Source of the DNA: Candidatus Rubrimentiphilum sp.
Lineage (GTDB): Bacteria > Vulcanimicrobiota > Vulcanimicrobiia > Vulcanimicrobiales > Vulcanimicrobiaceae
Length of the DNA: 64,000 nucleotides
Assembly (NCBI GenBank): GCA_035710515.1
Contig: DASTDE010000001.1
Location: forward strand, 930,001 to 994,000
Direction of reading: 5' to 3'
The notes beneath the pieces are model-generated. The model had not been told where the DNA came from. It searched no databases and saw only the letters and a program-made list of their open reading frames with translations. Below are positions 7,847 through 58,934 of the stretch, one piece after another (position 1 is the first letter of the stretch; each line of letters starts with the position of its first letter). Made by a program: the position numbers and the translations under genes.

Positions 7847-8662
7847 GTGGCCTCTCGGTTAGATGTGCCGCCGCCTTTTCGATCGGTCGACGACGTCGTC
7901 GGCGGGCTTGCCGCGCTCGACCGGCAGTTTCAAGCCGCACGCGACCTACGCGGCCTGTTCGTAATGGCGTACGTGGCCACCACGGACACGATCACGCGTT
8001 GGATCGATCAAGGCGCTTTTCTGGACAATGCGGCTATGACCCGATACGTCGTTGCGTTTGGGAACGCGTACCGCCGTGCACTCGAAAGCAGGGTCGCCGG
8101 CGAGCACTGGCGCGTTCCGGCGGCCTGGCGGCAATCTTTTGATGCGTGCGACGCACGAACTCCGGGCGTGTACCGGTGCTTGATGCTCGGAATCAACGCT
8201 CATATCAATCGTGACCTGCCGCACGCGGTAATAGAAGCGGGCGTCAATGTCAATTGCGCCGGTTGTTATCAGGACTACGTGCGAATCGATGATGTGCTGC
8301 GGCTCAATATGCCGCTCGTCCGGCGGCGCATCGCCGATGCGTACGGTGCGGAGCTTCCGGTTAGTCAGCGGTGGCTAGGCCATTTCGCCGGCAGCAGGAT
8401 ACACCGCAGGTTTAAACATGCCCGCCGCAATTCGTGGGAGTTTGCGACGCTGCTCGCGCGGGCCGATACGAAAACTGCGCGCCGCCGCGTGTACAATTTG
8501 ATCGAGGAGCGTGCCGAAAATGCGGGGCGGAAAATCCTGTTGAGCGCGACCGGCGTAGGCCACATCGCGTCGACTGCGGGGACCGCAGCGTACAATCACT
8601 ACGTGCGGTACTTCGGCGATCGTAGGAGGCACGCTCGCGGTCCCGTTTTTTTTGACCGTTAA
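7847..8662 (+). CDS. DUF5995 family protein
   Basis: The 271-aa protein contains the DUF5995 hallmarks: a Trp/Arg-rich helix RVPAAWRQSFDAC (about 84-96), then LGINAHINRDLPHAV (about 109-123), and a later basic helical half (SRIHRRFKHARRNSWEFA). The I-N-A-H-I-N-R-D-L motif with its His and Asp is suggestive of a metal site or an all-alpha hydrolase-like fold, but no activity is established. No signal peptide is seen. GTG 7847 is the first usable start and lies only about 40 nt from the rnpB promoter, transcribed divergently. The stop overlaps a possible small lipoprotein frame. Confidence 0.8.
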   Translation: MASRLDVPPPFRSVDDVVGGLAALDRQFQAARDLRGLFVMAYVATTDTITRWIDQGAFLDNAAMTRYVVAFGNAYRRALESRVAGEHWRVPAAWRQSFDACDARTPGVYRCLMLGINAHINRDLPHAVIEAGVNVNCAGCYQDYVRIDDVLRLNMPLVRRRIADAYGAELPVSQRWLGHFAGSRIHRRFKHARRNSWEFATLLARADTKTARRRVYNLIEERAENAGRKILLSATGVGHIASTAGTAAYNHYVRYFGDRRRHARGPVFFDR

Positions 8663-10434: not shown

Positions 10435-10794
10435 ATGCATTACGCCGCGCCAGGCGACTCTGAAGTGCATCGCACGCTTTCGGTAAACCGGGGCCCGCGT
10501 CGTTGGGGCTTTCGGCCCACGGCTCCCCAGCGGGATGCCCACAATGGACCGTTAAACGTCATCAAAGGCGTAACGATACACGGACTGCGGCACAGTATGA
10601 CGACGCTTGCACTGAGTGAGGGGCTACCCATCAAATCGGTTGCAGCACGACTAGGCCATGCGACTACGCGCATGACGCTCGACCGCTATGGGCACCTGTT
10701 GGCGGGCGCTGACCGGGCGACAGCAGACGCGCTCGACGGTGTACTCAAACCTGCGCCTTCGGTGCCAGCCTTGACTGCTAAAGTCTTAGAATAG
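10435..10794 (+). pseudogene. Tyrosine recombinase (phage-type integrase), C-terminal remnant
   Basis: Only about 119 aa remain against 300-400 for a complete integrase. The C-terminal catalytic part is clear: HGLRHSMTTLALSEG (H49, R52 of the box II H-x-x-R), ARLGHATTRMTL with the third-position His at 75, and the nucleophile tyrosine in DRYGHL (Y85). The N-terminal DNA-binding domain and first catalytic Arg are absent, and the first 40 residues are unlike any integrase, so the protein cannot catalyse recombination. It points toward the 3' ends of two tRNA-Ala genes about 90 nt away, a usual integration target. It is the scar of an integrated element. Confidence 0.75.
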
Positions 10795-11126: not shown

Positions 11127-11858
11127 ATGTTTCCCGCAGTCGTCCTTGCCGCCGCAGTTTCGGGTCAGCCGTGCTGGGATATCTTCGCGGGGGCCTTGCA
11201 GCACAACGCCGTCGGTGCGCATCCAGCCTATGTGAGCTACGACGAGCGCATCTCCGTGATGGGCGACGATTACCCCATCCTCTACAGCCTGGCGCACGTG
11301 GACTACCGTGACGACGGAACGGCGCGCGTCGAGGACCAGCGCTTCAACTATTTGCCGATCTATACCACTCATGCAGAGCCGGGACCACCGGAGCTTGGGC
11401 CGTACGGGAAGGCTCGATCTGCGTGGCTTCCGTTGGAGGGCGTGCAAGGGCTCCCGGTCATCACGAGCGTGCATGTCAACGGCAACATCACCTGCACTGT
11501 GGCCGGCGTCGAAGACTACAAAGGCCATCGCAGCTACCACATCGTGTTTGGAAATCTGGCGCCCAACAAACCCGCGATCAAAGCCATTTGGATCGACGCG
11601 GCTTCGCGCGACGTGTGGAAGCTGATTGTGAGCGGCTACATCATGTTCATCAACGCCAACGAAGCGCCGCCGCTGACCGACTTCCAAGTGGAGTTGGGAT
11701 ACTCAGGGCCATTCCTAGTGGTGAACCACGTCGTGTGGCAGCTGCGCCGGCGCGAGTATTCGCAGTGGGCGAGCTATTTCGGCGAGTACACGCTGAGTGG
11801 ATTCACATTCCCGAACACGTTACCGCCGGGATACTTCGGCGAGAGCGAGCAGCGCTAG
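11127..11858 (+). CDS. Secreted hypothetical protein
   Basis: The 243-aa product has a short hydrophobic N-terminus (MFPAVVLAAAVSGQP) compatible with a signal peptide, then a beta-rich domain with repeated aromatic residues (YPILYSLAHVDYRDDG, SYHIVFGNLAPNKPAIKAIW, WASYFGEYTLSGF). The repeated strand pattern and IWIDAASRDVWKL resemble LolA/LolB-like or lipoprotein-carrier folds, but this is a weak impression. The start ATG 11127 follows TAAGGA closely; the signal peptide looks short, so the real start may differ. It is flanked by tRNA-Ala and tRNA-Ile genes on the opposite strand. Confidence 0.55.
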   Translation: MFPAVVLAAAVSGQPCWDIFAGALQHNAVGAHPAYVSYDERISVMGDDYPILYSLAHVDYRDDGTARVEDQRFNYLPIYTTHAEPGPPELGPYGKARSAWLPLEGVQGLPVITSVHVNGNITCTVAGVEDYKGHRSYHIVFGNLAPNKPAIKAIWIDAASRDVWKLIVSGYIMFINANEAPPLTDFQVELGYSGPFLVVNHVVWQLRRREYSQWASYFGEYTLSGFTFPNTLPPGYFGESEQR

Positions 11859-11955: not shown

Positions 11956-12186
11956 TTATATCATCGCGATGTATTTTTTCAATGCTTCATCGTCGGCTTT
12001 GAGTTGAGCCAGCATCATATCGCGCCGTACTCCCGCTTCGCGCAGCAACTCGGCCCGTTCGGCCATCTCGAAATCGAAGGCTTGGTGTTGAGCGTCCGTT
12101 GCCTCGTCGGGCGCGACGGGTTTTCCTTTGGAAAGAGAAGGCCGCGACGAAGGCTGCCGCGGCCCGATCTGCCTAGTGGGCTCCAT
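11956..12186 (-). CDS. Small helical protein, third gene of lytic-transglycosylase cassette
   Basis: The 76-aa product has a basic, proline-rich, probably disordered N-terminus (RQIGPRQPSSRPSLSKGKP) and a long amphipathic helix (AFDFEMAERAELLREAGV to LKADDEALKKYIAMI). No signal peptide or family is seen. Its ATG shares one base with the TGA of the preceding glycine-zipper gene (TGATG), so it is translationally coupled. The helical, Glu/Lys-rich build resembles the C-terminal half of that neighbour, and the two may interact. Function is unknown. Confidence 0.6.
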   Translation of the reverse strand: MEPTRQIGPRQPSSRPSLSKGKPVAPDEATDAQHQAFDFEMAERAELLREAGVRRDMMLAQLKADDEALKKYIAMI

Positions 12187-12566
12187 CAGCTGCCGATGGA
12201 CTCAATGAATTTTTTCGTGATGGCGTTGTCTTCTTTGCGCTGAACCATCTGCACGTCGCGCAACGTGTTCACCTCGCGCATCTGTTCGGATTTCTCGTCC
12301 ATCATCTCGTCGAACGCCTCGGACTGCTTTTGCATTTGCTCCTGATGCCGGATCTGTTCGCCGTACATGGCAAGCTGAAACGCTTCGTCCTGCGCGTTGA
12401 GCGCACCGAGTCCGGCATTACCCGCCGCGCCGGCGACGTTCCCGGCGGTGACGCCGCCGGTCGTTGCGCCGGCCAGACCCATGCCGATCGCGGCCAGCGG
12501 GTTACCGCCGCTTTCCAGCAGCCCAAGGCCCGCGTTCAAAAGTCCGCCTATTAAATTGAAGCTCAT
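12186..12566 (-). CDS. Glycine-zipper / coiled-coil protein, middle gene of cassette
   Basis: The 126-aa protein has two parts. Residues 1-60 are Gly/Ala-rich and hydrophobic (FNLIGGLLNAGLGLLESGG, AAIGMGLAGATTGGVTAGNV), a pattern seen in membrane-inserting glycine zippers and in small secreted filament or pore components. Residues 60-126 form a charged Gln/Glu/Met-rich helix (IRHQEQMQKQSEAFDEMMDE). There is no cleavable signal peptide. It starts 4 nt after the transglycosylase gene with GAGGTGA as ribosome site and ends overlapping the next start. I do not recognise a family; holin-like, needle-like or tape-measure-like roles are all conjecture. Confidence 0.6.
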   Translation of the reverse strand: MSFNLIGGLLNAGLGLLESGGNPLAAIGMGLAGATTGGVTAGNVAGAAGNAGLGALNAQDEAFQLAMYGEQIRHQEQMQKQSEAFDEMMDEKSEQMREVNTLRDVQMVQRKEDNAITKKFIESIGS

Positions 12567-12570
12567 CGTT

Positions 12571-13242
12571 TCACCTCACGTCAGAGAGATCGTCGTCACC
12601 GTCATCCGCGATGATCGATCCGGGGTTCGCAGTATCGTGTCCGGCCAGCTGCCGGTAGGAGTGCGTGTTCGGCGCGGCCGGCGGAGGCATCAGGGATGCA
12701 AAGGACGCCAGCGTATTGATGCTGTGTTGCTCGGTTGCGCTCTCGGCGCTAAGTTCGTTTACGGTTTGCTCGCCGCCGAGCTGCGCGTAGTGACGCAGCA
12801 CCGAATCGGCGTAACTTAGGCGGCGCCCGTCCCGCCATTCGGTCACAGTGCCGGTCGCGTTGGGATCGCCCGCGTTGTACGCGGAGAGTGCTTTGTGAAC
12901 GTCGCCGCCGTACCGGCGCAGCAAGCCCGAGATCATGCCGGCCGCGTAGTCCGCATTGGCTGCCGGATTCATTGCCGCGGCTGTCCGCGCGAAGGTGTGC
13001 CACCGATCGTCGATCTGGAAGATGCCGTGCCCATGGCCGCCGTCGCCGACGATGTTGCTGCCGGCGTTGGCGCCCGGGCCGCCGGTCTCTTGAGCCGCGA
13101 CTGCCGCCAAGAGCGCAGCGTCGACGCCGTGGCGTTGGGCCGCCTGGACGATTTCGGGCGCGTAGGCCACGCCTTGCCGGGCCAGGGTAGCCGCCGATTC
13201 AATCATGCGAGGGTCTATACCGTCGACGAACCCGTTTGACAA
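12571..13242 (-). CDS. Lytic transglycosylase (SLT domain), first gene of cassette
   Basis: The 223-aa protein carries a soluble-lytic-transglycosylase/goose-lysozyme fold that would cleave the glycan strands of peptidoglycan. The catalytic glutamate lies in AAVAAQETGG (about E52), then GHGIFQIDDRWH (about 71-82) and the conserved SAYNAG (120-125). No signal peptide or lipobox is present, so export must use another route or occur with a machine. The C-terminal 60 residues are disordered and end acidic (IADDGDDDLSDVR). The start is uncertain: TTG 13242 or ATG 13206, both without a good ribosome site. It leads a coupled three-gene cassette. Confidence 0.75.
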   Translation of the reverse strand: MSNGFVDGIDPRMIESAATLARQGVAYAPEIVQAAQRHGVDAALLAAVAAQETGGPGANAGSNIVGDGGHGHGIFQIDDRWHTFARTAAAMNPAANADYAAGMISGLLRRYGGDVHKALSAYNAGDPNATGTVTEWRDGRRLSYADSVLRHYAQLGGEQTVNELSAESATEQHSINTLASFASLMPPPAAPNTHSYRQLAGHDTANPGSIIADDGDDDLSDVR

Positions 13243-13264
13243 GGCCTGGAGCGCGTTCTACAAT
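13236..13264 (+). promoter_or_regulatory. Near-consensus sigma70 promoter of the DUF177-rpmF-fab run
   Basis: TTGACA (13236-13241), a 17-nt spacer and TACAAT (13259-13264) match the sigma70 consensus with one mismatch. Transcription should start near 13271, which excludes the upstream in-frame starts of the DUF177 gene. The -35 overlaps the start region of the divergent transglycosylase gene. Confidence 0.85.
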
Positions 13265-13275
13265 GGGTCGAGTTT

Positions 13276-13299
13276 GGAGGGCCCCCGGCGGGGCCTTCC
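13276..13299 (+). promoter_or_regulatory. Leader stem-loop upstream of DUF177-rpmF
   Basis: GGAGGGCCCC (13276-13285) pairs with GGGGCCTTCC (13290-13299), ten base pairs including one G-T, around a CGGC tetraloop. It begins about 5 nt after the predicted transcription start and ends 8 nt before ATG 13308. The only strong Shine-Dalgarno-like sequence, GGAGG, is inside the stem. There is no T-run, so it is not a terminator. Confidence 0.6.
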
Positions 13300-13307
13300 T
13301 CTATGTT

Positions 13308-13772
13308 ATGGGTTCTGCGCACAAAGTTGACGTCGGTGGGCTGCTCGCGGGCAGCCGTCAAAGGCTCGTCCTGGATGACCAGGTGCCGTTGGAGCCGTTC
13401 GAGGGCATCACGTTCCCGGAGCGGGCGGAGGTGCATCTGGAACTGGAGGCTGCGGGGCAGCTCCTGGAGATCGCCGGCAAGGTTGATGCGAAGATTCAGG
13501 GCGAGTGCGTGCGCTGTTTGGGCGAGGTCCACGGCGACATCCACTTGGAGGTTGACGAGCAGGTCGAGACCGGAGCGAAACTGCAAGGCAACCCGTTCGA
13601 CGACAGCAACGTCTTGGCGGGCGACCGCCTGGACGTGGCCGACTTGACGGCCCAACTGGTTTGCAGCGCGATACCGATTGGGTTATTGTGCAAAGAGGAT
13701 TGCAAGGGAATCTGTCCGCGATGCGGAGAGAATCGAAATACTGCAAAGTGCGAGTGTAACGGAGACAGCTAG
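13308..13772 (+). CDS. DUF177 (YceD-like) protein
   Basis: The protein (154 aa from ATG 13308) belongs to the YceD/DUF177 family encoded next to rpmF across bacteria and linked in some organisms to 23S rRNA/50S assembly. Its metal-binding signature is complete: GECVRCL in the middle and a C-terminal C-x-x-D-C-x-G-I-C-P-x-C-G block (LCKEDCKGICPRCGENRN) plus CEC. Earlier in-frame starts at 13236 and 13263 lie on or before the -10 box, so 13308 is used although no free ribosome site precedes it. Its TAG overlaps the rpmF GTG. Confidence 0.9.
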   Translation: MGSAHKVDVGGLLAGSRQRLVLDDQVPLEPFEGITFPERAEVHLELEAAGQLLEIAGKVDAKIQGECVRCLGEVHGDIHLEVDEQVETGAKLQGNPFDDSNVLAGDRLDVADLTAQLVCSAIPIGLLCKEDCKGICPRCGENRNTAKCECNGDS

Positions 13773-44456: not shown

Positions 44457-45335
44457 TTATATCCCGGCTGGGTGCCAGATCGTTTTGATCTCGCTGTACA
44501 TCGCGATGTCGTCCAAACTCTGAGCGGCGGGTGAAAACCATTCGTCCCGTTTCTGACGGTGAAGAACGTGCGTGCGTTTGACGTTGTCGGACGCCTCGCG
44601 TTGCAAATCCGTCGTCAGCGGGCCATCGATAAACGCAAGCGCATTGACGTCCATGTGCTTAGCCAGCACTGGGCCCAGTTCGCTGCGGAAACCGGTGATG
44701 ATGTTCACGACGCCTGCCGGTACATCGCTCGTCGCTAACGCTTCGGCGAAAACAACAGCGGTGCGCGGATCTTTCTCGGAGGGGACGAGCACCACGGCAT
44801 TGCCGGCGACCAGCGCCGGCAATAATACTGAAACCAATCCCAGCAGCGCAGGCTCATCAGGAGCAAGGATCCCAACGACGCCGGTCGGCTCGGCGGTCGA
44901 AAAGTTGAAGTGCGGGCCGCCGACGGGATTACGCGTCGAAAGCAACGCGTTGTACTTGTCGCACCATCCCGCATACCACACGACACGGTCGATCGTAGCC
45001 ACGACTTCGGCCTCGGCGTCGCCGGCCGAAAGATTCATTCCCTCGCGTACGCGATCGACGAGCTCCTCGTGGCGGGCTTCCATCATCTCCGCGAGGCGAT
45101 AGAGAATCAGGCCGCGCGTTCCCGGAGCCGTCGCCAGCCATTTGGGCTGCGCCGCTCGTGCCGCGACGACTGCGTCCCGGATGTCTTTGCGCGACCCGCG
45201 CGCGATGTTCGCACCGAACTCCGAGCCGTCCCATAAGGGATCGCTGCGGCCGGATTCCGATCGCACGAACGCGCCGTTGATGAAGAGCTTGTACATCTTG
45301 CGGACGGCAAGCCTGGGTCGATCGACTTTGGGCAT
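44457..45335 (-). CDS. Truncated aldehyde-dehydrogenase-like protein without catalytic residues
   Basis: The 292-aa protein matches only the N-terminal NAD-binding part of aldehyde dehydrogenases: KLFINGAFVRSESGR, ARAAQPKWLATAPGTRGLIL, VLVPSEKDPRTA and VPAGVVNIITG. It stops near FIDGPLTTDLQREASDNVKR and lacks both the catalytic Glu (ELGG region) and Cys (GxVC). A short family of this type is often found beside deoC and a full-length ALDH; here that pair lies 11 kb away. A structural or regulatory partner role is possible; a decayed gene is the alternative. Start ATG 45335 is uncertain (ATG 45296 also fits). Confidence 0.7.
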   Translation of the reverse strand: MPKVDRPRLAVRKMYKLFINGAFVRSESGRSDPLWDGSEFGANIARGSRKDIRDAVVAARAAQPKWLATAPGTRGLILYRLAEMMEARHEELVDRVREGMNLSAGDAEAEVVATIDRVVWYAGWCDKYNALLSTRNPVGGPHFNFSTAEPTGVVGILAPDEPALLGLVSVLLPALVAGNAVVLVPSEKDPRTAVVFAEALATSDVPAGVVNIITGFRSELGPVLAKHMDVNALAFIDGPLTTDLQREASDNVKRTHVLHRQKRDEWFSPAAQSLDDIAMYSEIKTIWHPAGI

Positions 45336-45399
45336 GCCGCGAGCTACGACGCAGGGGAGGCGGGACCCTATGGGGGTATATGCCCGAGGGAGGCTCCAT

Positions 45400-45954
45400 A
45401 TGACGACCACTAAGCCGTTTTTGTCCGACGTACAAGAGCTGCGGCGGCGCGCGCGAGAGAACATGATGCGCGGTTCGGTTACCAGCGATTACAAGGGTGA
45501 CATAAAGCAAGCCGTAGCGGTACTGAATGCAGCGCTAGCGACCGAGATCGTGTGCGTCCTGCGCTACAAGCGCCACTATTACATGGCCAAGGGCATTGCA
45601 AAAGACTCCGTTGCCGGCGAGTTCTTACAGCACGCCAACGAGGAGCAAGGCCACGCCGACATGATTGCCGAGCGCATCACGCAGCTCGGCGGCGAGCCCG
45701 ATTTCAATCCGGAAGGGCTCGCGACGCGCAGCCACTCGGAGTACAAAGAAGGCGACGACCTCGTGGACATGATCAAGGAAAACTTGGTCGCCGAACGCGT
45801 CGCCATCGAGTCATATCGCGAGATCGTGCGTTTCTTCGGCGACAACGATCCGACCACGCGCCGGATGATCGAGGAGATCCTCGCGGTGGAAGAAGAGCAC
45901 GCCAACGACATGGTTGACCTGCTCGAGCAGCACGGATCGAACGGTAAGCGCTAG
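45400..45954 (+). CDS. Ferritin-like diiron protein (bacterioferritin/Dps-like)
   Basis: The 184-aa four-helix protein has a diiron ligand pattern: ALATEIVCVLRYKRHYY (Glu), HANEEQGHADMIAERI (E-x-x-H type), and LVAERVAIESYREIV then VEEEHANDMVDLL. This fits the ferritin/bacterioferritin family rather than Dps, which binds iron at the interface, but family is not sharp. GAGGGAGG lies 5 nt before ATG 45400. The gene is divergent from the ALDH-like gene. Iron storage or redox protection is inferred. Confidence 0.8.
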   Translation: MTTTKPFLSDVQELRRRARENMMRGSVTSDYKGDIKQAVAVLNAALATEIVCVLRYKRHYYMAKGIAKDSVAGEFLQHANEEQGHADMIAERITQLGGEPDFNPEGLATRSHSEYKEGDDLVDMIKENLVAERVAIESYREIVRFFGDNDPTTRRMIEEILAVEEEHANDMVDLLEQHGSNGKR

Positions 45955-46436
45955 GGACGCGGTTTATGCGTCTGCGTGAAGACTTTTACGAGCTTTCCGC
46001 CCCGTAACGCATACGTCGTAACGACGTTCAGCGTGCAGTGGAGGTCGTCGCAAGCGTCAACGTATAAAAACTGTTTCGCGAACCGGATGTGAATGGAAGT
46101 GGGCCCGGCGCCCCAGTCGCTGCCCCAACTGGCAGTCGCAACCTTCGAGAGAAGCACCGCGCCGTTTTTGCGTTCGTCGAAAGCATACGCCGCAGCTTCC
46201 CCGCCGTCGGCCGGATAATCGCACGCCAGCACAACAACTGCCTGTTGCGTGCCCTTGGCCAGACTGCCCTCAACGACGGAATGCACATTTAAATCAAAGC
46301 CCGCGCCCATCTTGTCGTCAAAATAGGAAAAGCTGCCCTTCCGCATGACCACCGGAACCGGCACGTTCGACGGGCACGGGTTCGTGGCGTAGGTGAAGTT
46401 CATAAAGTCGACGGCCAAGAGCAACGGCGCGATCAT
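45951..46436 (-). CDS. Hypothetical protein
   Basis: The 161-aa product begins MIAPLLLAVDFMNFTYATNP, perhaps a short signal peptide, and contains two Cys near the middle and end (LACDYPADGG, DACDDLHC). The rest is beta-rich (ASWGSDWGAGPTSIHIRFA, TTYALRGGKLVKVF). No family is recognised. It overlaps the ferritin-like stop by 4 nt and the next gene upstream (the cobalamin-binding-like protein, stop 46433) by 4 nt; the two minus-strand genes are coupled. Confidence 0.5.
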   Translation of the reverse strand: MIAPLLLAVDFMNFTYATNPCPSNVPVPVVMRKGSFSYFDDKMGAGFDLNVHSVVEGSLAKGTQQAVVVLACDYPADGGEAAAYAFDERKNGAVLLSKVATASWGSDWGAGPTSIHIRFAKQFLYVDACDDLHCTLNVVTTYALRGGKLVKVFTQTHKPRP

Positions 46437-47308
46437 GCTGCCTCCGGATGAAGAAACGAAGCGAAAATCTCGATCGTGTCAACCAAACGCGGTCCGGGAC
46501 GGTTCACATACGCGTTTCCGTCCACCGGATGCACGCGTCCTTCGCGCACCGCGCGTAGCCCCATCCACTCGGGACGCGCCTGCAGCTCCCTCAATGCCTC
46601 AAGCGTCTTCGGCAAACCGTAACCGCATGGAGCGACAATGATTGCATCGGGATCGGCTGCGGTAATCTCGTCCCAGGAGAGCCGCCGCGAGTTCGCTCCA
46701 GGATTTGAAAGCACCGGGTCGCCGCCCGCGGCTTCGACAAGTCCGGGCGTCCAGTGTCCGGCGCCCATCGGTGGATCGGTCCATTCGAGCACCAGCACGC
46801 GCGGCGCGAACTCCGCGGCAGCATAATCGCGCACGGCGGCTTCGCGGCGCCGCAATGCATCGACGACCTCGCGCGCTTTCCACTGAACGCCGGTTAACTC
46901 GCCCAGCGTCATGATGTTCGCATACACGTCCTCCAGCGAAGACGGTTCGAGGGAAACGACGCGCGGATCGGAGGTCAGACGCCGGGCCGCGCGATCGACG
47001 ATCGCATACGAAACGGCGCAAACTTCGCAGAGCTCCTGCGTTACGATGAGATCCGGTTTCAGCTGTTCGAGTAACTCCGCATTCAGCGTGTAGAGACTCG
47101 AGCCGGCATGCAGCGCGCGACGGACGTGACGATCGATCGCGGCCGAAGAATCGGCGAAAGCGAGGGCCGAGGCCGTCAGGCGGGGCAGGCGCAGCGCCTC
47201 CGGCGGGTAGTCACACTCGTGCGTGACCCCGACCAGATCGCCGCCCGCTCCAATGGCAAAAAGCGTCTCCGTGGCGCTCGGAAGCAAGCTAACTATGCGC
47301 AACGGCAC
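46433..47308 (-). CDS. Cobalamin/iron-siderophore-binding-like protein (BtuF-type, Peripla_BP_2) without signal peptide
   Basis: The fold is that of class III periplasmic binding proteins: the protein opens with RIVSLLPSATETLFAIGAGG and continues VGVTHECDYPPEALRLP, PDLIVTQELCEVCAV and PDAIIVAPCGYGLPKTLEAL. From GTG 47308 it is about 291 aa and shows no signal peptide, so it may be cytosolic or exported by an unseen start. The longer frame to 47512 is unlikely, since it overlaps the divergent kinase region. No BtuC/BtuD transporter is adjacent. The B12-dependent RNR gives a reason for cobalamin binding, but the ligand is inference. Confidence 0.72.
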   Translation of the reverse strand: MPLRIVSLLPSATETLFAIGAGGDLVGVTHECDYPPEALRLPRLTASALAFADSSAAIDRHVRRALHAGSSLYTLNAELLEQLKPDLIVTQELCEVCAVSYAIVDRAARRLTSDPRVVSLEPSSLEDVYANIMTLGELTGVQWKAREVVDALRRREAAVRDYAAAEFAPRVLVLEWTDPPMGAGHWTPGLVEAAGGDPVLSNPGANSRRLSWDEITAADPDAIIVAPCGYGLPKTLEALRELQARPEWMGLRAVREGRVHPVDGNAYVNRPGPRLVDTIEIFASFLHPEAA

Positions 47309-47341
47309 TTCAATCCGCGCTTGTATGGGAATAACCTGCGC

Positions 47342-48955
47342 GTGGAACAGGCAACCGTCGACGAACATGTGCCGTCCAAGGGCGCGCGATCCCGTGAAAT
47401 TCTGGCGACCCTCGCCCGCCACGGAGTAAGCGCCGCTACCGGCCACCCCGCCGCCGAGCAGCTCCGGCTGGCGTGCGAAGAGCTCGGCACGACGTTCATC
47501 AAACTCGGCCAATCGCTCTCGACCCGCGCCGATCTCTTACCGGCCGACTATCGCGCCGAACTGCAAAAACTGACCGACAATGTTCCGCCCGTGCCGTACG
47601 AAGAAATCGCCGCGGTCATTCGTGATGAGCTCGGTGCGGCACCCGACAAGCTCTTCGCGCGCTTCGATCGTACGGCGTTGGGATCCGCATCGATCGGCCA
47701 GGTTCACGCCGCCACGCTTCACGACGGCCGGGAAGTCGTCGTCAAAGTGATCAAGCCGGGCGTCGAAGATCTCGTAGGCATCGATTTGCAGATTCTGGAC
47801 GACCTCGCCGGAAAAGCGTCGAAGCGCTGGCCGGTTTTGGATGAGTACGGCGCGGGCGATCTGGTCGAGGAGTTCGCCGACACGCTGCGCTACGAGCTCG
47901 ACTTCACGCGCGAGGCCGCCAGCGCCGAGCTGTTCCGGGCGTTCTTTCAAGACGAGCCCGGCATAAAGATACCGGAAGTGATCTACGAACGCTCGTCGGC
48001 GCGAGTGATTACGCTCGAACGCCTTCACGGTCAAAAGCCGGCCGAGCTTTCGGAACGCGCGCAACGGAAGCGCGAAGTGGCCGGCGAGCGGGTCGCGCGG
48101 TTCATTTTGGAGCCGGCCTTCGGCGAAGGCGTCTTCTATGCGGATCCGCATAGCGGGAATTTTGTCGTCATGCCGGGCGGCGCGATTGGCGTCATGGACT
48201 TCGGCATGACGGGCAGACTAGCGCCGGAAGTGCGGCGCCGGGTAGCGGATATCTTCACCGCGTTCGATCGGCGCGATCCCGAACGCGTCACCGATCGCCT
48301 CTTACAGGTCGCAGGACCGACGCATCCGGTAGACCGCGCCGCCCTAGGCGGCGAGATCGCGCGCATCTTGGAACGTCATTTGGCCGCGGACTTGAAGAGT
48401 ATGGAGTTCGGCGATGCACTGACGGAGATGCTCGACGTCGTGCGCTGCTACAAGTTGCGGCTGCCGGGGCCGGTCGCGCTGCTCTTCAAAGCGCTGGTCA
48501 TGTGTGAAGGTTTGATCGAGACGATCAGTCCGAACGCCAACATGAGCTCGTTCGTCGCATCACTCTCGGAGAAGATTCTCTATCAGCGGTTAAACGGTCA
48601 GGACTGGGCCGGAAACATCCGCAACACGGCGATCGACGCGGCCGAGCTGAGCATCGAGCTGCCGCGCAGAGTCGATCGCGTGCTCTCGGAGGTCGAGCGC
48701 GGCAACTTGCGCGTCTGGGCGCGCATGGAGGACTTCGAACCTGCGCTGGCCCGCTTCGAACGCGCGATTGAGACGACGAACGCGACGATGTTGGCTTCGG
48801 CGTGCATCGTCGGCTTGGCGATCGTGATGCTCGTCTATCACCCGCAGGGCTGGGGCCGCTGGATCGGCTATGCGTTCTGGTCGGTCGTGGCAATCGCGTT
48901 TCTGTTCAGTCTGCGAACCGTCTGGGCGACCTTGAAGAAACGGAAGGTCCGGTAG
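47342..48955 (+). CDS. UbiB/AarF ABC1-type atypical kinase
   Basis: The protein (537 aa from GTG 47342) is a member of the UbiB family needed for ubiquinone or terpenoid-quinone function. The KxGQ motif is present as IKLGQSLSTRADLLP. The Ala-rich loop is ALGSASIGQVHAATL, and the catalytic and metal motifs are in YADPHSGNFVV and VMDFGMTG. Two C-terminal membrane helices (ASACIVGLAIVMLVYH and GYAFWSVVAIAFLFSL) anchor it. TTG 47321 is an alternative start. It is divergent from the binding-protein gene with a 33-nt gap, and a small lipoprotein gene follows. Confidence 0.85.
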   Translation: MEQATVDEHVPSKGARSREILATLARHGVSAATGHPAAEQLRLACEELGTTFIKLGQSLSTRADLLPADYRAELQKLTDNVPPVPYEEIAAVIRDELGAAPDKLFARFDRTALGSASIGQVHAATLHDGREVVVKVIKPGVEDLVGIDLQILDDLAGKASKRWPVLDEYGAGDLVEEFADTLRYELDFTREAASAELFRAFFQDEPGIKIPEVIYERSSARVITLERLHGQKPAELSERAQRKREVAGERVARFILEPAFGEGVFYADPHSGNFVVMPGGAIGVMDFGMTGRLAPEVRRRVADIFTAFDRRDPERVTDRLLQVAGPTHPVDRAALGGEIARILERHLAADLKSMEFGDALTEMLDVVRCYKLRLPGPVALLFKALVMCEGLIETISPNANMSSFVASLSEKILYQRLNGQDWAGNIRNTAIDAAELSIELPRRVDRVLSEVERGNLRVWARMEDFEPALARFERAIETTNATMLASACIVGLAIVMLVYHPQGWGRWIGYAFWSVVAIAFLFSLRTVWATLKKRKVR

Positions 48956-48969
48956 AGAATACCTGGGGC

Positions 48970-49422
48970 GTGAACAGACTGGTGCTGGTTGCCGTTATGG
49001 CGGCCGGGATAGCCGTAGCGGGCTGCGGCGGAGGTTACGGCGGCATTACGATTCCGGGCAGCGGCTCATGCCTCTTTAGCGGGCTGACGCAGCTGATCTA
49101 CCCGATGCCGGGGGCGACGAACGTGCCTGACGCGCCGCAGCAGATCGTCTTTGCGACCAGTCAGCTTTTTCCAAGCGGCTTCGACGTGCTCATCAGCAGC
49201 GATTCGAACCCCAACAACGCTGTAAACGGCACGGCCGCATTCTTCCAGCGCATTCAAGCGTCGCAAGTCCCGTCGCCGTCGGCTACGCTGCAGATCAGTA
49301 ATCCGTTTTATGAAAGCGCGTCGTTAAGCACGTCGTTCCCGCATGGGACGTACTATGTGTTCCTCAACGACTCGCGCGTGAGTTGCACGCCGACTTCGGC
49401 CGGTTCGTTTACAACCCAGTAA
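48970..49422 (+). CDS. Small lipoprotein of unknown function
   Basis: GTG 48970 gives a 150-aa product with a lipoprotein signal (MNRLVLVAVMAAGIAVAGC, lipobox VAGC) and a Gly-rich stretch (GGGYGGITIPGSGSC). The mature domain carries Pro-rich and aromatic strands (IYPMPGATNVPDAPQQIVFA, YYVFLNDSRVSC) that resemble a small beta-sandwich. It is 14 nt downstream of the kinase gene and may share its transcript. A longer frame upstream lies within the kinase gene and is rejected. The icd stop is 3 nt away, convergent. Confidence 0.65.
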   Translation: MNRLVLVAVMAAGIAVAGCGGGYGGITIPGSGSCLFSGLTQLIYPMPGATNVPDAPQQIVFATSQLFPSGFDVLISSDSNPNNAVNGTAAFFQRIQASQVPSPSATLQISNPFYESASLSTSFPHGTYYVFLNDSRVSCTPTSAGSFTTQ

Positions 49423-49425
49423 GAG

Positions 49426-50889
49426 TCACTCGCCTTGGGCGAGCGAGAAGCCGCGGCTCCCGTCGAACGTGTACAGGCCTTCAGTCTTTATGACGTCAAA
49501 GCCGGCGCCGCCCATCGCCGCGAGAATCTCGGCCACGGCACGATTTGAAAAGCCGTCGCCCTCAAAGCGGCAGCTCCAGTGATCGCTCCAGAACGTGTCG
49601 GGATTGCCGTTGGGCCAGACTTTGGTTCCGCGGTTGCTGATGACCGTAAGTTTAGCGCCTGTGAGTTTCAGGGCATTGATACGGTCCGCGATCGTGTCGG
49701 GATTGCCGTCGGGGAGATCGATGAAGACGTCGACGCCGGTGTGCTTTTTGGCTGAGCGCTTGCCGGCGGCGCGCACGGAGACGTTCATCTGCGCGTCCTT
49801 GGCATACTCGACCGGCTGCAAGTTTTGCGGGCGTTCTCCCAATCGCGCGATCACAGCGGTAGCGAACTCTTTGGTGCCGACTTTCTCTTTGCTGACGCCT
49901 TCCTTATAGATGTCGTAGGTGTGAACGCCGTCCTCGATGGTGCGCAGCCAAGCGTTGTGGGCGCGCTCGGCGACTTCGCCTTGACCGATATGCGAGAGCA
50001 TGAGCAGCGCGCCATGAAAGAGGCCCGACGGATTGGCCATATTCTGACCGGCGCGGCGCGGCGCCGAACCGTGAATCGCTTCGAACATGGAGCAGTGGTC
50101 GCCGATATTGGCCGAACCGGCTAACCCGACGGACCCCGTGATCTGCGCGGCGACGTCGGAGAGCACGTCACCGTACAGATTCGGCATCACCAAAACGTCA
50201 AACGCTTCAGGGGTGTCTGCCATCTTGGCTGCGCCGATATCCACGATCCAGTGCTCGTTTTCGATGTCGGGATACTCGGTCGCGATTTCATCGAAGACCT
50301 TATGGAACAGCCCGTCCGTGATCTTCATGATGTTGTCTTTGGTGAAACAAGTCACTTTCTTGCGCTTGTTGGCGCGCGCGTACTCGAACGCGTAGCGTAC
50401 GATCCGCTCGCTGCCCGGGCGCGAAATCAGCTTCAGGCACTGCGTGACTTGCTCGGTCTGGCGGTGTTCGATTCCGCCGTAGACGTCCTCTTCGTTCTCA
50501 CGCACGATTACGAGGTTCATCTTCGGATGTTTCGTCGCGATATACGGATGCAGCGAGGCGCAGGGCCGCACGTTGGCATACATGCCGAGCGTCTTGCGCA
50601 CGGTGACGTTGAGCGACTTAAAGCCGCCGCCCTGGGGCGTTGTAATCGGCGCTTTTAGGAAGACTTTCGTGCGGCGCAGCGAGTCCCAGGAACTGGGCTC
50701 TATTCCGTTGGTGATGCCGCGCGAGTAAATGCTCTCGCCGATCTCGATGCGCTCCATATCGAGGCGCGCGCCGGCCTCCATGATGATGCGCAGCGTCGCA
50801 TCCATGATTTCGGGACCGATGCCGTCGCCGTACGCCACGGTTATTGGGGTCTTTTTTGCGGTTAGAGTGACCACTGGTTCGCGTTCCAT
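49426..50889 (-). CDS. icd: NADP-dependent isocitrate dehydrogenase (long form)
   Basis: Icd oxidatively decarboxylates isocitrate to 2-oxoglutarate. The 487-aa protein has the metal/isocitrate residues in IVRENEEDVYGGIEH and NLYGDVLSDVAAQITGSVGLAGSANIGDH, and AIHGSAPRRAGQNMANPSG. It is the longer branch found in Thermus and Rickettsia, with a C-terminal extra domain (VDVFIDLPDGNPDTIADRIN, then WSDHWSCRFEGDGFSNRAV). ATG 50889 overlaps the SBP gene by 28 nt; GTG 50874 would shorten this to 13. Coenzyme choice (NADP) is inferred from the family. Last gene of the operon. Confidence 0.88.
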   Translation of the reverse strand: MEREPVVTLTAKKTPITVAYGDGIGPEIMDATLRIIMEAGARLDMERIEIGESIYSRGITNGIEPSSWDSLRRTKVFLKAPITTPQGGGFKSLNVTVRKTLGMYANVRPCASLHPYIATKHPKMNLVIVRENEEDVYGGIEHRQTEQVTQCLKLISRPGSERIVRYAFEYARANKRKKVTCFTKDNIMKITDGLFHKVFDEIATEYPDIENEHWIVDIGAAKMADTPEAFDVLVMPNLYGDVLSDVAAQITGSVGLAGSANIGDHCSMFEAIHGSAPRRAGQNMANPSGLFHGALLMLSHIGQGEVAERAHNAWLRTIEDGVHTYDIYKEGVSKEKVGTKEFATAVIARLGERPQNLQPVEYAKDAQMNVSVRAAGKRSAKKHTGVDVFIDLPDGNPDTIADRINALKLTGAKLTVISNRGTKVWPNGNPDTFWSDHWSCRFEGDGFSNRAVAEILAAMGGAGFDVIKTEGLYTFDGSRGFSLAQGE

Positions 50890-52475
50890 CCTTCACTGAT
50901 GCCGTTGGGCGAGAAATTTTGGAGATTGGGGTTCAGTCCGTAGCGCCGCTTCGTGTAATAGTTAAACGCGGCGGGAGCGTCGCCGATGAGGAGCGACTCG
51001 ATGCGGGAGTAAGCGCGTTTGCGCGTTGGCCGGTCGAAGTGATTCAGCGCAGCCGTTTCGGCGGCATCGAGCGCGGGATCGCAGTAGCTGCCGATGTTGT
51101 TTCCTTTTGGCGGCGCCATCTTGCATAGCCACTGCGAGGAGTTATCGGGATCGGCGCCGGCAACCCAGGCGTATTCCGCCAGATCGAATTTGCCGCTTTG
51201 CAGAATGCCGCCCAACTGCTGGGTGGCGTAAAGCATACTGTACGGATAGATCTTGATAGGTACATCGATTCCGGCCCGCCGCAGATCAGATTGCACTTCG
51301 ACGGCGATGCCCTGCGCGGTGGCGCTTCCGGCGCCATAGACGAGTTGCAGCGAGAGTTTGCGGCCGCCCTTGGAGCGCATGCCCGATGCATCGCGGCGCC
51401 ATCCGGCCTGGTCGAGCAGGCGGCCTGCCAGGGACGGATCGTACGCGGCGGGTTTGAGGCTCGAATCGAACGCCCAGTAGAAGTCCGAGAGGTCGGCGAC
51501 CGCGACCGTCGCCGTCCCAAACGTTACGTCTCTTACAAGGCGCGGATCGTTAATGGCAGCGACGATGGCGCGCCGCACGCGGATATCGTCGAGCGGCGGG
51601 CGCTTAAAGTTGAAGACGATCGACGTGTACGAGGGTGCTTTGACCAATAACGCTTTCACGCCGCCGACCTCGGTCAAGCCGTGATACGTCGTCGCACTGA
51701 TGTCGAGCAGTAGATCCGACCCGTGGGATCGCAACTCCGCCATCTGCGTATTGCCGTCGGGAACGGTGTAAACCAGGATCGTGCGCAGCTTGGGCGCGCC
51801 GCCGAAGTAGTGCGGGTTGGCCGCGTACTCAACGTGATCGCCGCGGTACCAGCGCACGACCTGAAAGGGCCCGGTCCCAATCGGCTTTTGATTGAACGGA
51901 ATCCGGTTGATGTTCGGATACCGCGCCAGCAGATGTTTCGGCACGATTCTGAACGGGTCGTCGCTCTCGCCGAAGACGGTGTCAACGAACGGCGCGAACG
52001 GCTGCTTTAAATGAAAGACGACCGTGTAGGGATCGGGCGTATCAACGGAGGCTACTTGATCGTAACCCCGCCGCTCAACCACGTTGTTGTTCGGATTCAT
52101 CACGGCTTGCCAGCTGAATTTGACGTCGGCGCTCGTAAACGGCGCGCCGTCCTGCCATGTCACGCCATGCCGCAGGTAGTACGTGATGGTACGTCCGTCG
52201 GTGCTGATGCCATGATTTTCGACGCTCGGCACCCGAGCGGCCAAGTCGGGTACTTGGTTTCCTTTGTCGTTGAGCGTGACCAGCAGATTGAACGCGAGAC
52301 TGGAAAGGAAGTTCTCGCCCGTGTTCGTTGCCAGCAGCGGGTTGAGCGACGTCGGCTCGACATAGTTGGCCACGCGCAGGATGCCCGTCGGTTTCGCAGT
52401 CGTGCCGCCGTTCTGCTTGGCGCATGCCGAAGCGAGAAGAAGCAGCGCGACGCCTAACGCGGTGAGGCGTTTCAT
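50862..52475 (-). CDS. Peptide/oligopeptide ABC transporter substrate-binding lipoprotein (SBP family 5)
   Basis: The 537-aa protein starts MKRLTALGVALLLLASAC, lipobox ASAC, and then the SBP_bac_5 pattern: TGILRVANYVEPTSLNPLLA, IPFNQKPIGTGPFQVVRWY and SQWLCKMAPPKGNN. It should bind peptides or other solutes at the membrane surface; no permease or ATPase genes lie in the operon, so its transporter is elsewhere. The ATG overlaps the EgtB-like stop (ATGA) and its end overlaps icd. The operon context suggests uptake tied to amino-acid breakdown. Confidence 0.85.
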   Translation of the reverse strand: MKRLTALGVALLLLASACAKQNGGTTAKPTGILRVANYVEPTSLNPLLATNTGENFLSSLAFNLLVTLNDKGNQVPDLAARVPSVENHGISTDGRTITYYLRHGVTWQDGAPFTSADVKFSWQAVMNPNNNVVERRGYDQVASVDTPDPYTVVFHLKQPFAPFVDTVFGESDDPFRIVPKHLLARYPNINRIPFNQKPIGTGPFQVVRWYRGDHVEYAANPHYFGGAPKLRTILVYTVPDGNTQMAELRSHGSDLLLDISATTYHGLTEVGGVKALLVKAPSYTSIVFNFKRPPLDDIRVRRAIVAAINDPRLVRDVTFGTATVAVADLSDFYWAFDSSLKPAAYDPSLAGRLLDQAGWRRDASGMRSKGGRKLSLQLVYGAGSATAQGIAVEVQSDLRRAGIDVPIKIYPYSMLYATQQLGGILQSGKFDLAEYAWVAGADPDNSSQWLCKMAPPKGNNIGSYCDPALDAAETAALNHFDRPTRKRAYSRIESLLIGDAPAAFNYYTKRRYGLNPNLQNFSPNGISEGWNANQWSL

Positions 52476-53740
52476 CTATCGTTGACCAAACGGAACTTCG
52501 CGTACATGTACGGATAGTCGGCAAAGAACCAGTTTCTGAAACTGCGGCGGATCAATTCGCGCGCGGTTACCGGCGAAGCACCCTTCATCACATAGTGTTT
52601 GCCGTCGAAAAAGTCGGCGCTGTATTGGGGATAACTCGCCATCGGTTCGAAGCCGGCAAACGGCGCGAATTGCGTTCCGGTCCACTCCCAGCCGTTGCCG
52701 ATGAGATCGTGGACGCCCCACGCGCTCGCGCCGCCGGGATGCGCATCGACCGGTTCCGGGTCGTAACGCTGGAAGTCGAAGTTTCCGTGTGCCGCATTGG
52801 GAGGCTCATCGCCCCACGGAAACGCGCGCTCCGTTCCTTGCGGCGTGCCGAACGCGGCACGATGGTACTCGGCTTCAGTTGCCAAGCGCGCGCCTTTCCA
52901 CTTTGCGTACGCTTCCGCGTCGGTATGCCGCACGTACACGGGCCACGACAACGGGAGCGGCAGCTCTTCGAAGACGCCGCGCAGCGCAAACGTGCCGTCG
53001 CGCTCGATCCAAAACGGCGGCACGGCGCCGCCGGCGGCGACGAACTCGCGGTACTCGCCGTTGGTCACGGGAAACCGTTGAATTGCAAAGGCTCCGACGG
53101 CGGCTTGATGCTCGTCGAACTCATTGTCCCAGCCGAACGGGATTGCGTCGCGGCGCGCGCCGAGCGTAGCCGTGCCGGACGCGATCTCAACGAATTCGTT
53201 GCGCGGCGGCGTGGAATCGCGGTGTTTTTGCGTCATGCGCCGCTTTTTTTCGGGCGCCAGCTGATGGAGGAGATAGATCAGCGTCTCGTGGTGCATCGGT
53301 TCGTGCTCGAGCGCCGTGTAGATCGCCTGTCCGCGAACGAGGCGCGGCACGTTCGGATCGACGAGCTGCGCGTTTGAAATCGCCGCATAGATGCGCTCGT
53401 CGCACTTGCGGCCGAAAGCTTGGGTTTGCTCTTTAGTCGGCCAATCGTCGCGTTCGTGCTTGCTCGCGTCTGCGACGCTGGACGGATCGATGCCCCGTTC
53501 AAAAATCTTTTCGAGGCGCGCGTCGAGTGGAGCTTCGCCCAAGGCGCGCTCGTTGACGACAAGATAGCTGAACACCGGCAGATGGCCCTCGTAAAACGCA
53601 AACGGGTGCCGCAGCGGAATCGGGCGATCGTAGTACGCGGCCGGTTCGACCAGCGAGAATATGTGGGCGGATCGTTCGCGGTTACGGCGGTACCAATCGG
53701 CGAGCGCCTCGCGGTCGAGCTTTTCAACTTGACTCAGCAC
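52472..53740 (-). CDS. EgtB-like sulfoxide synthase (DinB plus FGE-sulfatase domains)
   Basis: GTG 53740, with AAGGAG 7 nt upstream, gives a 422-aa protein, the usual EgtB size. The N-terminal DinB_2 part supplies the iron triad: H53 in YEGHLPVFSY, and H146/H150 in EHEPMHHETL (HX3HXE). The C-terminal FGE-sulfatase domain has FPVTNGEYREFVAAGG, HTDAEAYAKWKGARLATEAEY, and the end RNWFFADYPYMYAKFRLV. Family members form the C-S bond in ergothioneine or, as SenA, the C-Se bond in selenoneine. No egtD methyltransferase is nearby, so the product is undecided. A longer open frame upstream is an artefact of the next gene. Confidence 0.8.
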   Translation of the reverse strand: MLSQVEKLDREALADWYRRNRERSAHIFSLVEPAAYYDRPIPLRHPFAFYEGHLPVFSYLVVNERALGEAPLDARLEKIFERGIDPSSVADASKHERDDWPTKEQTQAFGRKCDERIYAAISNAQLVDPNVPRLVRGQAIYTALEHEPMHHETLIYLLHQLAPEKKRRMTQKHRDSTPPRNEFVEIASGTATLGARRDAIPFGWDNEFDEHQAAVGAFAIQRFPVTNGEYREFVAAGGAVPPFWIERDGTFALRGVFEELPLPLSWPVYVRHTDAEAYAKWKGARLATEAEYHRAAFGTPQGTERAFPWGDEPPNAAHGNFDFQRYDPEPVDAHPGGASAWGVHDLIGNGWEWTGTQFAPFAGFEPMASYPQYSADFFDGKHYVMKGASPVTARELIRRSFRNWFFADYPYMYAKFRLVNDR

Positions 53741-53751
53741 GGACTCACTCC

Positions 53752-55476
53752 TTACTTGCGGCGGGCGGAGTTTTCCCTGTGTGTTGCGAGCAATTCTTCC
53801 AGCGGCGCCGGGTCCAAGGGCGGGGAGAACAGGTTGCCTTGCACCAGATCGCAGTCGTGGGAGCGCAGAAATTCGAACTGCTCGTTCGTTTCCACGCCCT
53901 CGGCCACGATCTTTAACCCTAGGCTGTGGCCCATGGCTACGATCGCCTTCACCAGGGTTTCGTCGCTGCCGCGGCTGCCGATGCCCGCCACGAACGAGCG
54001 GTCGATCTTCAGGTGGTCGGCCTCGAAGCGGCGCAGATAGTTCAGCGACGAGTGGCCCGTCCCAAAGTCGTCGATGGCGATTTGGGTGCCGGCGTTTTTC
54101 AGGGCGTGAATGGTCTCGATCGCGTGCTTGGCGTCGAAGAGTGCCATGCTTTCGGTAATCTCGACCTCGATGGATTGTGGAGCTAAACCGGCCTCGGCAA
54201 CGATCGAGACCAGCCGCTCGCAGAGATCGCGCTGATGAAACTGCCGCGCCGAGATATTCAGCGCGAGTGTCATGAAGCCGAATTTGTCCTGCCACTTACG
54301 CATGCACTCGGCGGCGGTTTGCTCGACCCATTCTCCCAGCGGAATAATCAGGCCGCTGGCTTCGGCTGCGGGAATAAAAGCGTCGGGCGATATCAACCCT
54401 TGCGTCGGGTGATTCCACCGAACGAGTGCCTCGACGGCAACGATGGGATTGCCGTCAGCCATCTGCAAGATCGGTTGATACTGCAGTAGGAATTCGTCAT
54501 TAGTCAGTGCCGCCCGCAGCTGTTTTTCTTGCGCCAGCCGCGTGCGGATGGGCGCGTCGAATGCTTCGTCGTAGAAGAAGTAGGCGTTACGCCCCTGTTC
54601 CTTGGCGTGATACATGGCGATGTCGGCATTCTTGATGAGCACCTGGTCGTTGCGCCCGTGCTCCGGGTAGATTGCGATGCCGATGCTGGTCGTTATGTAC
54701 TGTTCGTAGCCTTCGATCCGGTACGGCTGGTCGACGCTGTGCCGCAACTCCTCGGCAAGCTGACGCACATCTTCTTTGCCGGAGCAGCGCGAGACGAGCA
54801 CGACGAACTCGTCGCCGCCCAGACGCGCAACGATTCCGCGGTTCTTGACCAGCAGGACGAGCCGCTCGCCGATGAGTTGCAGAAAGCGATCGCCGAGCGC
54901 GTGGCCGAGGGTATCGTTGATGTCTTTAAAGCGGTCGAGGTCGAGAAAGAGCAGTGCGACGCACGGTTCGTGACCAGGAGCATGTTCGAGTGCGTCGCGC
55001 AGCCGTTCCTGAAAGAAGATGCGGTTGGGCAATCCGGTCAGCGAATCATAATAGGCCAGCGTGCGCATGTGCGCGCGCGTGCGGCGCATCTCGGAGAGAT
55101 AGTGGGCCTCTTCGATCCGGAAAAAGATATTGCCGGTGAATTTGCCGCCTTCGACGATCGGGATCGTCGTGACTTGAACCGGCACCGCCGAGCCGTCCAG
55201 CCGTGTGAGATCCATCTCGGCGGCGGTCGGCTTATTGGCGCGCGCGGCCTCGAGCGCCTCAGATACAAATTTTATGGAGTCGGGTGCAAGCTGCGTGATG
55301 TCGAGCTTGAGAAGCGCTTCGTTTGAGTAGCCGGTCAGCTCCGATGCAGCCGCATTCGCGGCTAAGACGCGTCCGGCGCGATCGAGCGCGAAGATCGCGC
55401 TCGGCGTGGTCTCGAAAAGCGATGCAAAGACGCGCGGGTCAGTGGGCCAGGTACTCACGGAGACCGTGGACGCCAC
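53752..55476 (-). CDS. PAS-GGDEF-EAL cyclic-di-GMP regulator
   Basis: The product has a PAS domain (residues about 15-120), a GGDEF domain with an intact LGGDEFVVL (about 220), and an EAL domain starting near VEALVRWNHPTQG, with the EAL glutamate, NISARQFHQ, ESMALFD, DDFGTGHSSLNYL and EGVETNEQ motifs. Both catalytic signatures are complete, so it may make or degrade c-di-GMP depending on the signal. No membrane helix or signal peptide is seen. The start is uncertain: TTG 55512, GTG 55476 and GTG 55458 are in frame; 55476 limits overlap with the ALDH gene to 38 nt. It follows that gene and leads into EgtB-like after 11 nt. Confidence 0.88.
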   Translation of the reverse strand: MASTVSVSTWPTDPRVFASLFETTPSAIFALDRAGRVLAANAAASELTGYSNEALLKLDITQLAPDSIKFVSEALEAARANKPTAAEMDLTRLDGSAVPVQVTTIPIVEGGKFTGNIFFRIEEAHYLSEMRRTRAHMRTLAYYDSLTGLPNRIFFQERLRDALEHAPGHEPCVALLFLDLDRFKDINDTLGHALGDRFLQLIGERLVLLVKNRGIVARLGGDEFVVLVSRCSGKEDVRQLAEELRHSVDQPYRIEGYEQYITTSIGIAIYPEHGRNDQVLIKNADIAMYHAKEQGRNAYFFYDEAFDAPIRTRLAQEKQLRAALTNDEFLLQYQPILQMADGNPIVAVEALVRWNHPTQGLISPDAFIPAAEASGLIIPLGEWVEQTAAECMRKWQDKFGFMTLALNISARQFHQRDLCERLVSIVAEAGLAPQSIEVEITESMALFDAKHAIETIHALKNAGTQIAIDDFGTGHSSLNYLRRFEADHLKIDRSFVAGIGSRGSDETLVKAIVAMGHSLGLKIVAEGVETNEQFEFLRSHDCDLVQGNLFSPPLDPAPLEELLATHRENSARRK

Positions 55477-56875: not shown

Positions 56876-56877
56876 TT

Positions 56878-56900
56878 GTCATCCTGAGCGTGTCGAAGGG
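56878..56900. repeat. Intergenic REP-like sequence acting as ribosome site
   Basis: The deoC-ALDH gap contains TCATCCTGAGCGTGTCGAAG (56879-56898), a motif that recurs in intergenic regions of many unrelated genomes. Read on the minus strand it supplies the AGGA ribosome site of the ALDH gene and abuts the deoC stop. It occurs once in this window. Confidence 0.5.
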
Positions 56901-58891: not shown

Positions 58892-58909
58892 CGCAGAAGG
58901 GCACTTAGC

Positions 58910-58928
58910 GGGCCGCCCGAAGCGGCCC
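58910..58928. promoter_or_regulatory. Perfect 7-bp inverted repeat between HPPD and the 314-aa gene
   Basis: GGGCCGC (58910-58916) and GCGGCCC (58922-58928) flank CCGAA in the 43-nt divergent gap. It could bind a regulator of both tyrosine-catabolic units or fold as a hairpin in either leader. Confidence 0.4.
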
Positions 58929-58934
58929 TGTATT

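Follow-up and report, generated by a model that had tools for sequence, protein, structure and literature searches.

Which cellular machine does a peptidoglycan hydrolase serve when it carries no export signal of its own and is encoded together with two small helical proteins? This question is raised by a cassette of three genes, here named P1, P2, and P3, located in a 64,000-nucleotide stretch of DNA from Candidatus Rubrimentiphilum sp. (hereafter, the window), and carried by a little-known class of soil bacteria. A preliminary description of this DNA had reported three genes on the minus strand, joined by a 4-nt gap and a TGATG overlap, and the open reading frames, the strand and the junctions are as described: P1 and P2 are separated by AACG (12570-12567), while the stop codon of P2 and the start codon of P3 share one base in the TGATG at 12186. 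The cassette is flanked on one side by the divergent cluster yceD-rpmF-fabH-fabD-fabG-acpP-ffh, whose first gene, yceD, marks its fixed genomic address, and on the other by a tRNA-Ile gene (Table 1).

Table 1. Features of the P1-P2-P3 locus, in positions of the window
Feature	Position	Strand	Basis
P1, g-type-lysozyme/SLT-domain peptidoglycan hydrolase, 211 aa	12571..13206	-	Pfam SLT, PDB sequence and fold matches
P2, Gly/Ala-rich N-terminal segment, then predicted 85-residue helix	12186..12566	-	class-wide core family
P3, disordered Pro/Ala N-terminus and C-terminal helix as in P2 (paralogue)	11956..12186	-	hhalign
P1 promoter-like sequence: -35 TTGTCA (13242-13237), 17-nt spacer, -10 TATAGA (13219-13214)	13214..13242	-	sequence
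yceD divergent promoter-like sequence: TTGACA (13236-13241), 17-nt spacer, TACAAT (13259-13264)	13236..13264	+	sequence, conservation
yceD, divergent neighbour	13263..13772	+	Pfam YceD, E 2.5e-16
tRNA-Ile(GAT), directly behind P3	11865..11941	-	ARAGORN

The start of P1 had first been placed at TTG 13242. This triplet opens the -35 hexamer of a TTGTCA-N17-TATAGA arrangement, and for this reason the gene very probably starts at ATG 13206 instead. Since the -10 element ends 7 nt upstream of this ATG, transcription would begin at the start codon or next to it, and the P1 message is probably leaderless. In 49 of 66 loci the hexamer is found 33-38 nt upstream of the P1 start. As the yceD -35 overlaps it on the opposite strand and reads as its reverse, this conservation is not independent evidence for a P1 promoter, which we infer from the pattern of the motifs. 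Neither a sigma-54 nor a sigma-28 promoter pattern was found upstream of P1, or upstream of the export cluster of the same genome that is discussed later.

Regarding P1, its match to the Pfam SLT model (E 7e-10, 38.9 bits with a cut-off of 21.3) is accompanied by a Glu40, numbered on the 211-aa form, that is invariant in 20 homologues, and its nearest relatives in the PDB are goose-type lysozymes, both by sequence and by fold, with a fold match also to Slt. On these criteria, P1 belongs to the GH23 SLT/g-type lysozyme superfamily. The complete SLT site and the lack of a signal peptide noted earlier were thus borne out: the N-terminus of P1 has no hydrophobic stretch, and a signal peptide is present in none of the three proteins. 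P1 differs from goose-type lysozyme and Slt, with which it has the catalytic Glu in common, in its added C-terminal tail, which is disordered, Pro-rich and acidic. A tail of this type is known elsewhere only in the tail-only paralogue P4, encoded in genus g47 by an additional gene that separates P1 from P2 (L154:6618-6983, L193:6628-6936, L168:6690-7073). P4 carries the P1 tail without the enzyme, has a GTISAxPF-type N-terminus and, in some cases, SGTLHG repeats, and ends like P1 in a TDY..L..D-type sequence. It is only because g47 has the tail as a separate gene that we treat it as a module; similarity of the P1 tail across families is loose.

P2 had been described as a membrane-prone glycine-zipper protein, possibly pore-like. 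Its structure model consists of two short, low-confidence N-terminal helices and the long helix, in agreement with the Gly/Ala-rich segment and the charged helix that had been noticed. The membrane-prone character holds only weakly, as the best 19-residue Kyte-Doolittle mean is 1.2 (0.7-1.6 in the homologues), below that of usual membrane helices; glycine-zipper Pfam models match only single members of the family, and a pore finds no support in a protein with such weak hydrophobicity and a model that matched no solved structure. P3 is indeed a short helix, and not an unrelated one: comparison of the two family alignments by hhalign gives 99.1% (E 1e-18) between P3 and the C-terminal helix of P2, and by this measure P3 is a paralogue of that helix. 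In Pfam, PHROG, PDB and fold searches, neither P2 nor P3 gave anything above chance, so that, as far as these collections reach, they fit no curated family. Beyond the class, the P2 profile gave matches (E 6e-4 to 0.008) that were set aside as weak and mostly confined to the Gly-rich segment.

The same searches, extended to all three proteins, matched no single phage lysis, type III secretion system (T3SS) or type IV pilus set, in line with the expectation that the cassette would not reduce to one of them. P1 is not a flagellar FlgJ, for the rod-cap domain is missing, and P2 and P3 are not recognizable as axial proteins of a flagellum or T3SS, given that they have no Pfam family and that hhalign of P2 with FliE and FlgC of the export system of the same genome is empty. 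A T3SS translocator, needle and tip set was rejected since the cassette is unlinked from the T3SS locus and only two P2 members touch SctB2 (E 0.018), and a type IV pilus set since the cassette is surrounded by yceD, rpmF, fab genes and tRNAs, not by a prepilin, a secretin or an ATPase.

The cassette is nevertheless not a chance cluster, as its conservation and low dN/dS indicate. Among the 53 readable P1 loci, namely P1-anchored loci from a species-level genome collection with at least 1.5 kb of sequence behind P1, P2 lies directly downstream of P1 in every one, the three genes stand together in order in 49, and the divergent yceD is upstream in 49; the four loci without P3 are insertions into P2. 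The neighbours do not, therefore, vary freely, an outcome that would have spoken against the trio described at first. Moreover, pairwise dN/dS within the genus is 0.07-0.15 for P1, 0.02-0.07 (about 0.04) for P2, and 0.11-0.38 for P3, values that place P1 and P2 under strong purifying selection, as estimated from their sequences.

Nor is the cassette an indivisible trio. At E<=0.01, P2 is detected in 104 of the phylum's 149 genomes, and the strong matches all fall in three families of one class, f1 (the family of the window), f2 and f3. In f3, P2 occurs alone at a different site, adjoining rpmE-prfA; f2 has P2 and P3 without P1; and P1 is confined to f1, where it is absent from the members G011, G017, G028, and G034. 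As P2 spans the class and P1 only one family, P2 forms the core, with P3 as its later paralogue and P1 as an addition.

The class also has a type III export system, which in the genome of the window is represented by a single FlhA-type gene (G000:C4, ~45,000). Around it, a cluster at ~45,000-59,000 encodes, according to Pfam, FlhB, FliR, FliQ, FliP, FliN, a FliM/N-like protein, FliI, FliH, FliF, FliE, and a rod-like FlgC, with the FliF carrying a FliG_M piece, as well as an SLT enzyme and an aspartyl protease-like protein; the FlgB-like, FlgF/G-like and FliK-like genes of the cluster are named from their sequence and place only. A metF-like gene lies inside the cluster (L114, L115) and secDF beside it, and secDF adjoins the export loci in both f1 and f3. 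Some f1 members have a true flagellar FlhA as a second, separate gene, and in the FlhA tree the FlhA of this f1 system falls in a single clade with its f3 counterpart (100/100), separate from the flagellar FlhA of f1, f2, and the outgroup families f4-f7. Judged from gene content and phylogeny, the export system is derived from the flagellum and restricted to this class of the Eremiobacterota, the phylum to which the genome of the window belongs. In strain WC8-2, which is of this phylum, a published study saw no flagella and detected no flagellin gene (PMC9758169). P2 and the export system have the same taxonomic range and boundary, and both cassette and system are present in G014, which is a single contig of 3.5 Mb. 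The two sets of genes are unlinked, never being adjacent in any genome read.

The lead thus came from their co-decay, where the gene neighbourhood could give none. Of the 57 f1 genomes with a completeness of 90% or more, G001, G005, G006, and G079 lack both FlhA and FliP of the export system; G010 retains the system only as relics; G060 has lost the region from FlgC to mid-FliP and has a frameshift in FlhB and a stop in FlhA; and G068 has frameshifts in FlhB, the FlgF/G-like gene and FliF. The state of the cassette was scored on P2 only, which is the stricter choice because P1 is dispensable. P2 is lost in G010, where a remnant of P3 is left, and in G068, where P1 is cut short; in G079 it has a frameshift at codon 7 and an interruption, and in G060 an interruption. 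In G001, where the contigs end at this place, it was not scored. The system is kept in 50 genomes, with P2 intact in 44 and unreadable in 6 owing to contig ends or missing contigs. Loss or breakage of P2 therefore accompanies that of the export system in 4 genomes, as opposed to 0 of the 44 with the system (Fisher p = 6.5e-5, in a test that ignores the partial dependence among species, and with "broken" defined after the data had been seen); with only the 18 export loci read gene by gene as controls, p is 0.0014. The events are few, and for several of them the assembly is a draft, in which a frameshift may stem from a sequencing error. The P2 losses comprise four different lesions in three genera, and in g1, g47, and g13 broken species have intact relatives of their own genus. 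The plain presence/absence link between the cassette and FlhA looked weak, and became clear only after the broken loci were read gene by gene.

These data support a coupling between the cassette and the export system, as read from the genomes. Because the cassette tends to break where the system is broken, its products are probably unrecognised parts or cargo of that machine, and the reading that we prefer, to which we give a probability of about 0.55, is that P1-P2-P3 form an operon that, though unlinked, is accessory to the class-specific type III export system derived from the flagellum, and encode exported parts of it. The lack of Sec signals in the three proteins and the C-terminal helix common to P2 and P3 fit exported, self-assembling subunits. 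What we infer is that P2 and P3 would be exported by the system and would assemble on or beyond its rod, and that P1, exported alongside them, would open the peptidoglycan locally for the machine, its C-terminal tail acting as a docking part that would hold it at the site. The natural P1-P2 fusion found in G033 (L037:5715-6569) was counted for the link. The suggestion made at the outset, that a muramidase without an export signal next to a filament- or pore-like protein recalls secretion machines, fits insofar as the state of the cassette follows that of the export system, albeit not as to a pore.

Several observations were counted against this reading. P1 is missing from f2 and f3, as well as from some f1 members whose system is intact (e.g., G017), the export cluster has an SLT enzyme of its own, and profile comparison relates P2 to neither FliE nor FlgC of the system. 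In addition, G005 and G006 are without the export genes and keep the reading frames of P2 and P3 intact, with low dN/dS and no sign of relaxed selection. The export losses in these two genomes may be recent. Counted in favour of the link were a stop codon in the P1 of G005, at the Trp of DDRWH, and two changes in G006, namely an insert of ~2 kb of foreign sequence that parts yceD from P1 and replaces the -35, and a Pro at a near-invariant Leu of the P2 helix.

The intact P2 of G005 and G006 is also a point in favour of the main rival, an unlikely explanation that still deserves weight, in which the cassette has a separate function in the envelope or at the surface, for example with type IV pili, and cassette and export system do not cooperate, being both accessory in some lifestyles and lost together. 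The position of the cassette, far from the export genes and beside housekeeping genes in all families, would suit such a function and weighs against an accessory operon of the export system, and one of the broken cases, G010, has a small genome of 1.9 Mb. However, the broken cases also include large genomes (G079, 4.0 Mb; G060, 3.4 Mb; G068, 3.1 Mb) with relatives of the same genus that keep both, the neighbours yceD and fabH remain intact in broken cases, and P2 and the export system have one taxonomic boundary.

Much less probable is a phage-type or programmed lysis set, with P1 as a cytosolic endolysin, P2 as its holin-like releaser and P3 as a helper. The missing signal peptide of P1, its best PHROG profiles, which represent SLT-domain proteins of virions or of lysis, and the Gly-rich, somewhat hydrophobic P2 would agree with it; yet P2 falls short of the hydrophobicity of a membrane helix, often occurs without P1 (in f2, f3 and some f1 members), and is strongly constrained, the promoter-like sequence resembles that of housekeeping genes, and P1 and P2 were found by tblastn in no phage record among 50,697, so that a holin-endolysin-spanin cassette was rejected. 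Least probable, by a little, is a domesticated ejection module like the internal core (ejectosome) of phage T7, in which an unsignalled SLT enzyme (gp16) and a Gly-rich helical protein (gp14) are arranged as P1 and P2 are. In its favour, phrog_342 is the best PHROG match of P1, the fold of P1 weakly matches the T7 core protein, and Pfam T7_gp14 touches 2 of 35 P2 members (E at least 0.007), but comparison of the P2 family with the gp14 profile gives nothing (0.2% probability), the cassette is bacterial and vertically conserved with no other virion genes near it, and the IMG/VR matches that were read, L125 and L126, are host edges of proviruses and not phage genes.

Returning to the exported-parts reading, type III export has two well-studied products, flagella and injectisomes. 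P1-P3 are not a known T3SS set and may work like the outer part of one. More specifically, and only tentatively, P2 and P3 would form the external portion, whether needle, filament, cap or translocon, of a type III machine of a third kind, class-wide, flagellum-derived and without flagellin, served by a dedicated co-exported lysozyme whose tail would be a docking or export tag. If true, there would be a class-wide third type III lineage that lacks flagellin and has family-less partners encoded elsewhere, which would help show how exporters gain outer parts. The cultured Vulcanimicrobium alpinum WC8-2 (PMC9758169) probably carries both cassette and system, and the question is thus open to experiment.

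Among known enzymes, the flagellar peptidoglycan hydrolases FlgJ, SltF and BB0259 stand close to P1: they are of the lysozyme or SLT families and dedicated to a structure built by type III export, and dual-domain FlgJ, like P1, has no Sec signal. Unlike FlgJ, P1 has no N-terminal rod-cap domain and consists only of the SLT domain and the disordered tail; unlike all three, it is g-type-lysozyme-like and shares an operon with P2 and P3 away from the export genes, and SltF and BB0259 have Sec signals whereas P1 has none. The C-terminus of SltF modulates the binding of this enzyme to FlgJ, according to the title of a study cited in PMC8517470, and to the extent of that title it parallels the separate tail of P1. 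As for the exporter, the "Myxo" system of Myxococcales, non-motile and flagellum-derived (Abby and Rocha 2012, PMC3459982), resembles the eremiobacterial cluster in having an export core whose cluster is without any known gene for a secretin or a needle, and in making no flagellum. Myxo systems are without FlgB, FlgC, FliE, and FliG (PMC3459982); the eremiobacterial cluster differs in that it keeps FliE, a FlgC-like protein and a FliG_M-bearing FliF, has its own SLT enzyme, and is tied to the P1-P3 cassette.

Finally, some minor observations concern the locus and its surroundings. A 243-aa secreted-looking protein without a Pfam family (window 11127-11858) is conserved after the cassette in several f1 genomes, and a C-terminal fragment of a tyrosine integrase (window 10435-10794; Pfam Phage_integrase, E 1e-6), near two tRNA-Ala genes, is a probable remnant of an integrated element. 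P3 occurs twice in G018 (L042:10340-12218), with the second copy 1.4 kb further on and 96% identical. Integrating elements have hit P2 repeatedly (L147:5287-12646, L151 ~8187-8549, L152 4799-5161, L193 6958-7254, L125 600-970): in L193 P2 is interrupted by prophage-like genes, at a site different from that in G079, and a 43-kb IMG/VR provirus contig begins at P1-P2. At the far end of the G079 insert, a serine recombinase gene with Resolvase and Recombinase domains ends in frame with the last 14 codons of P2.
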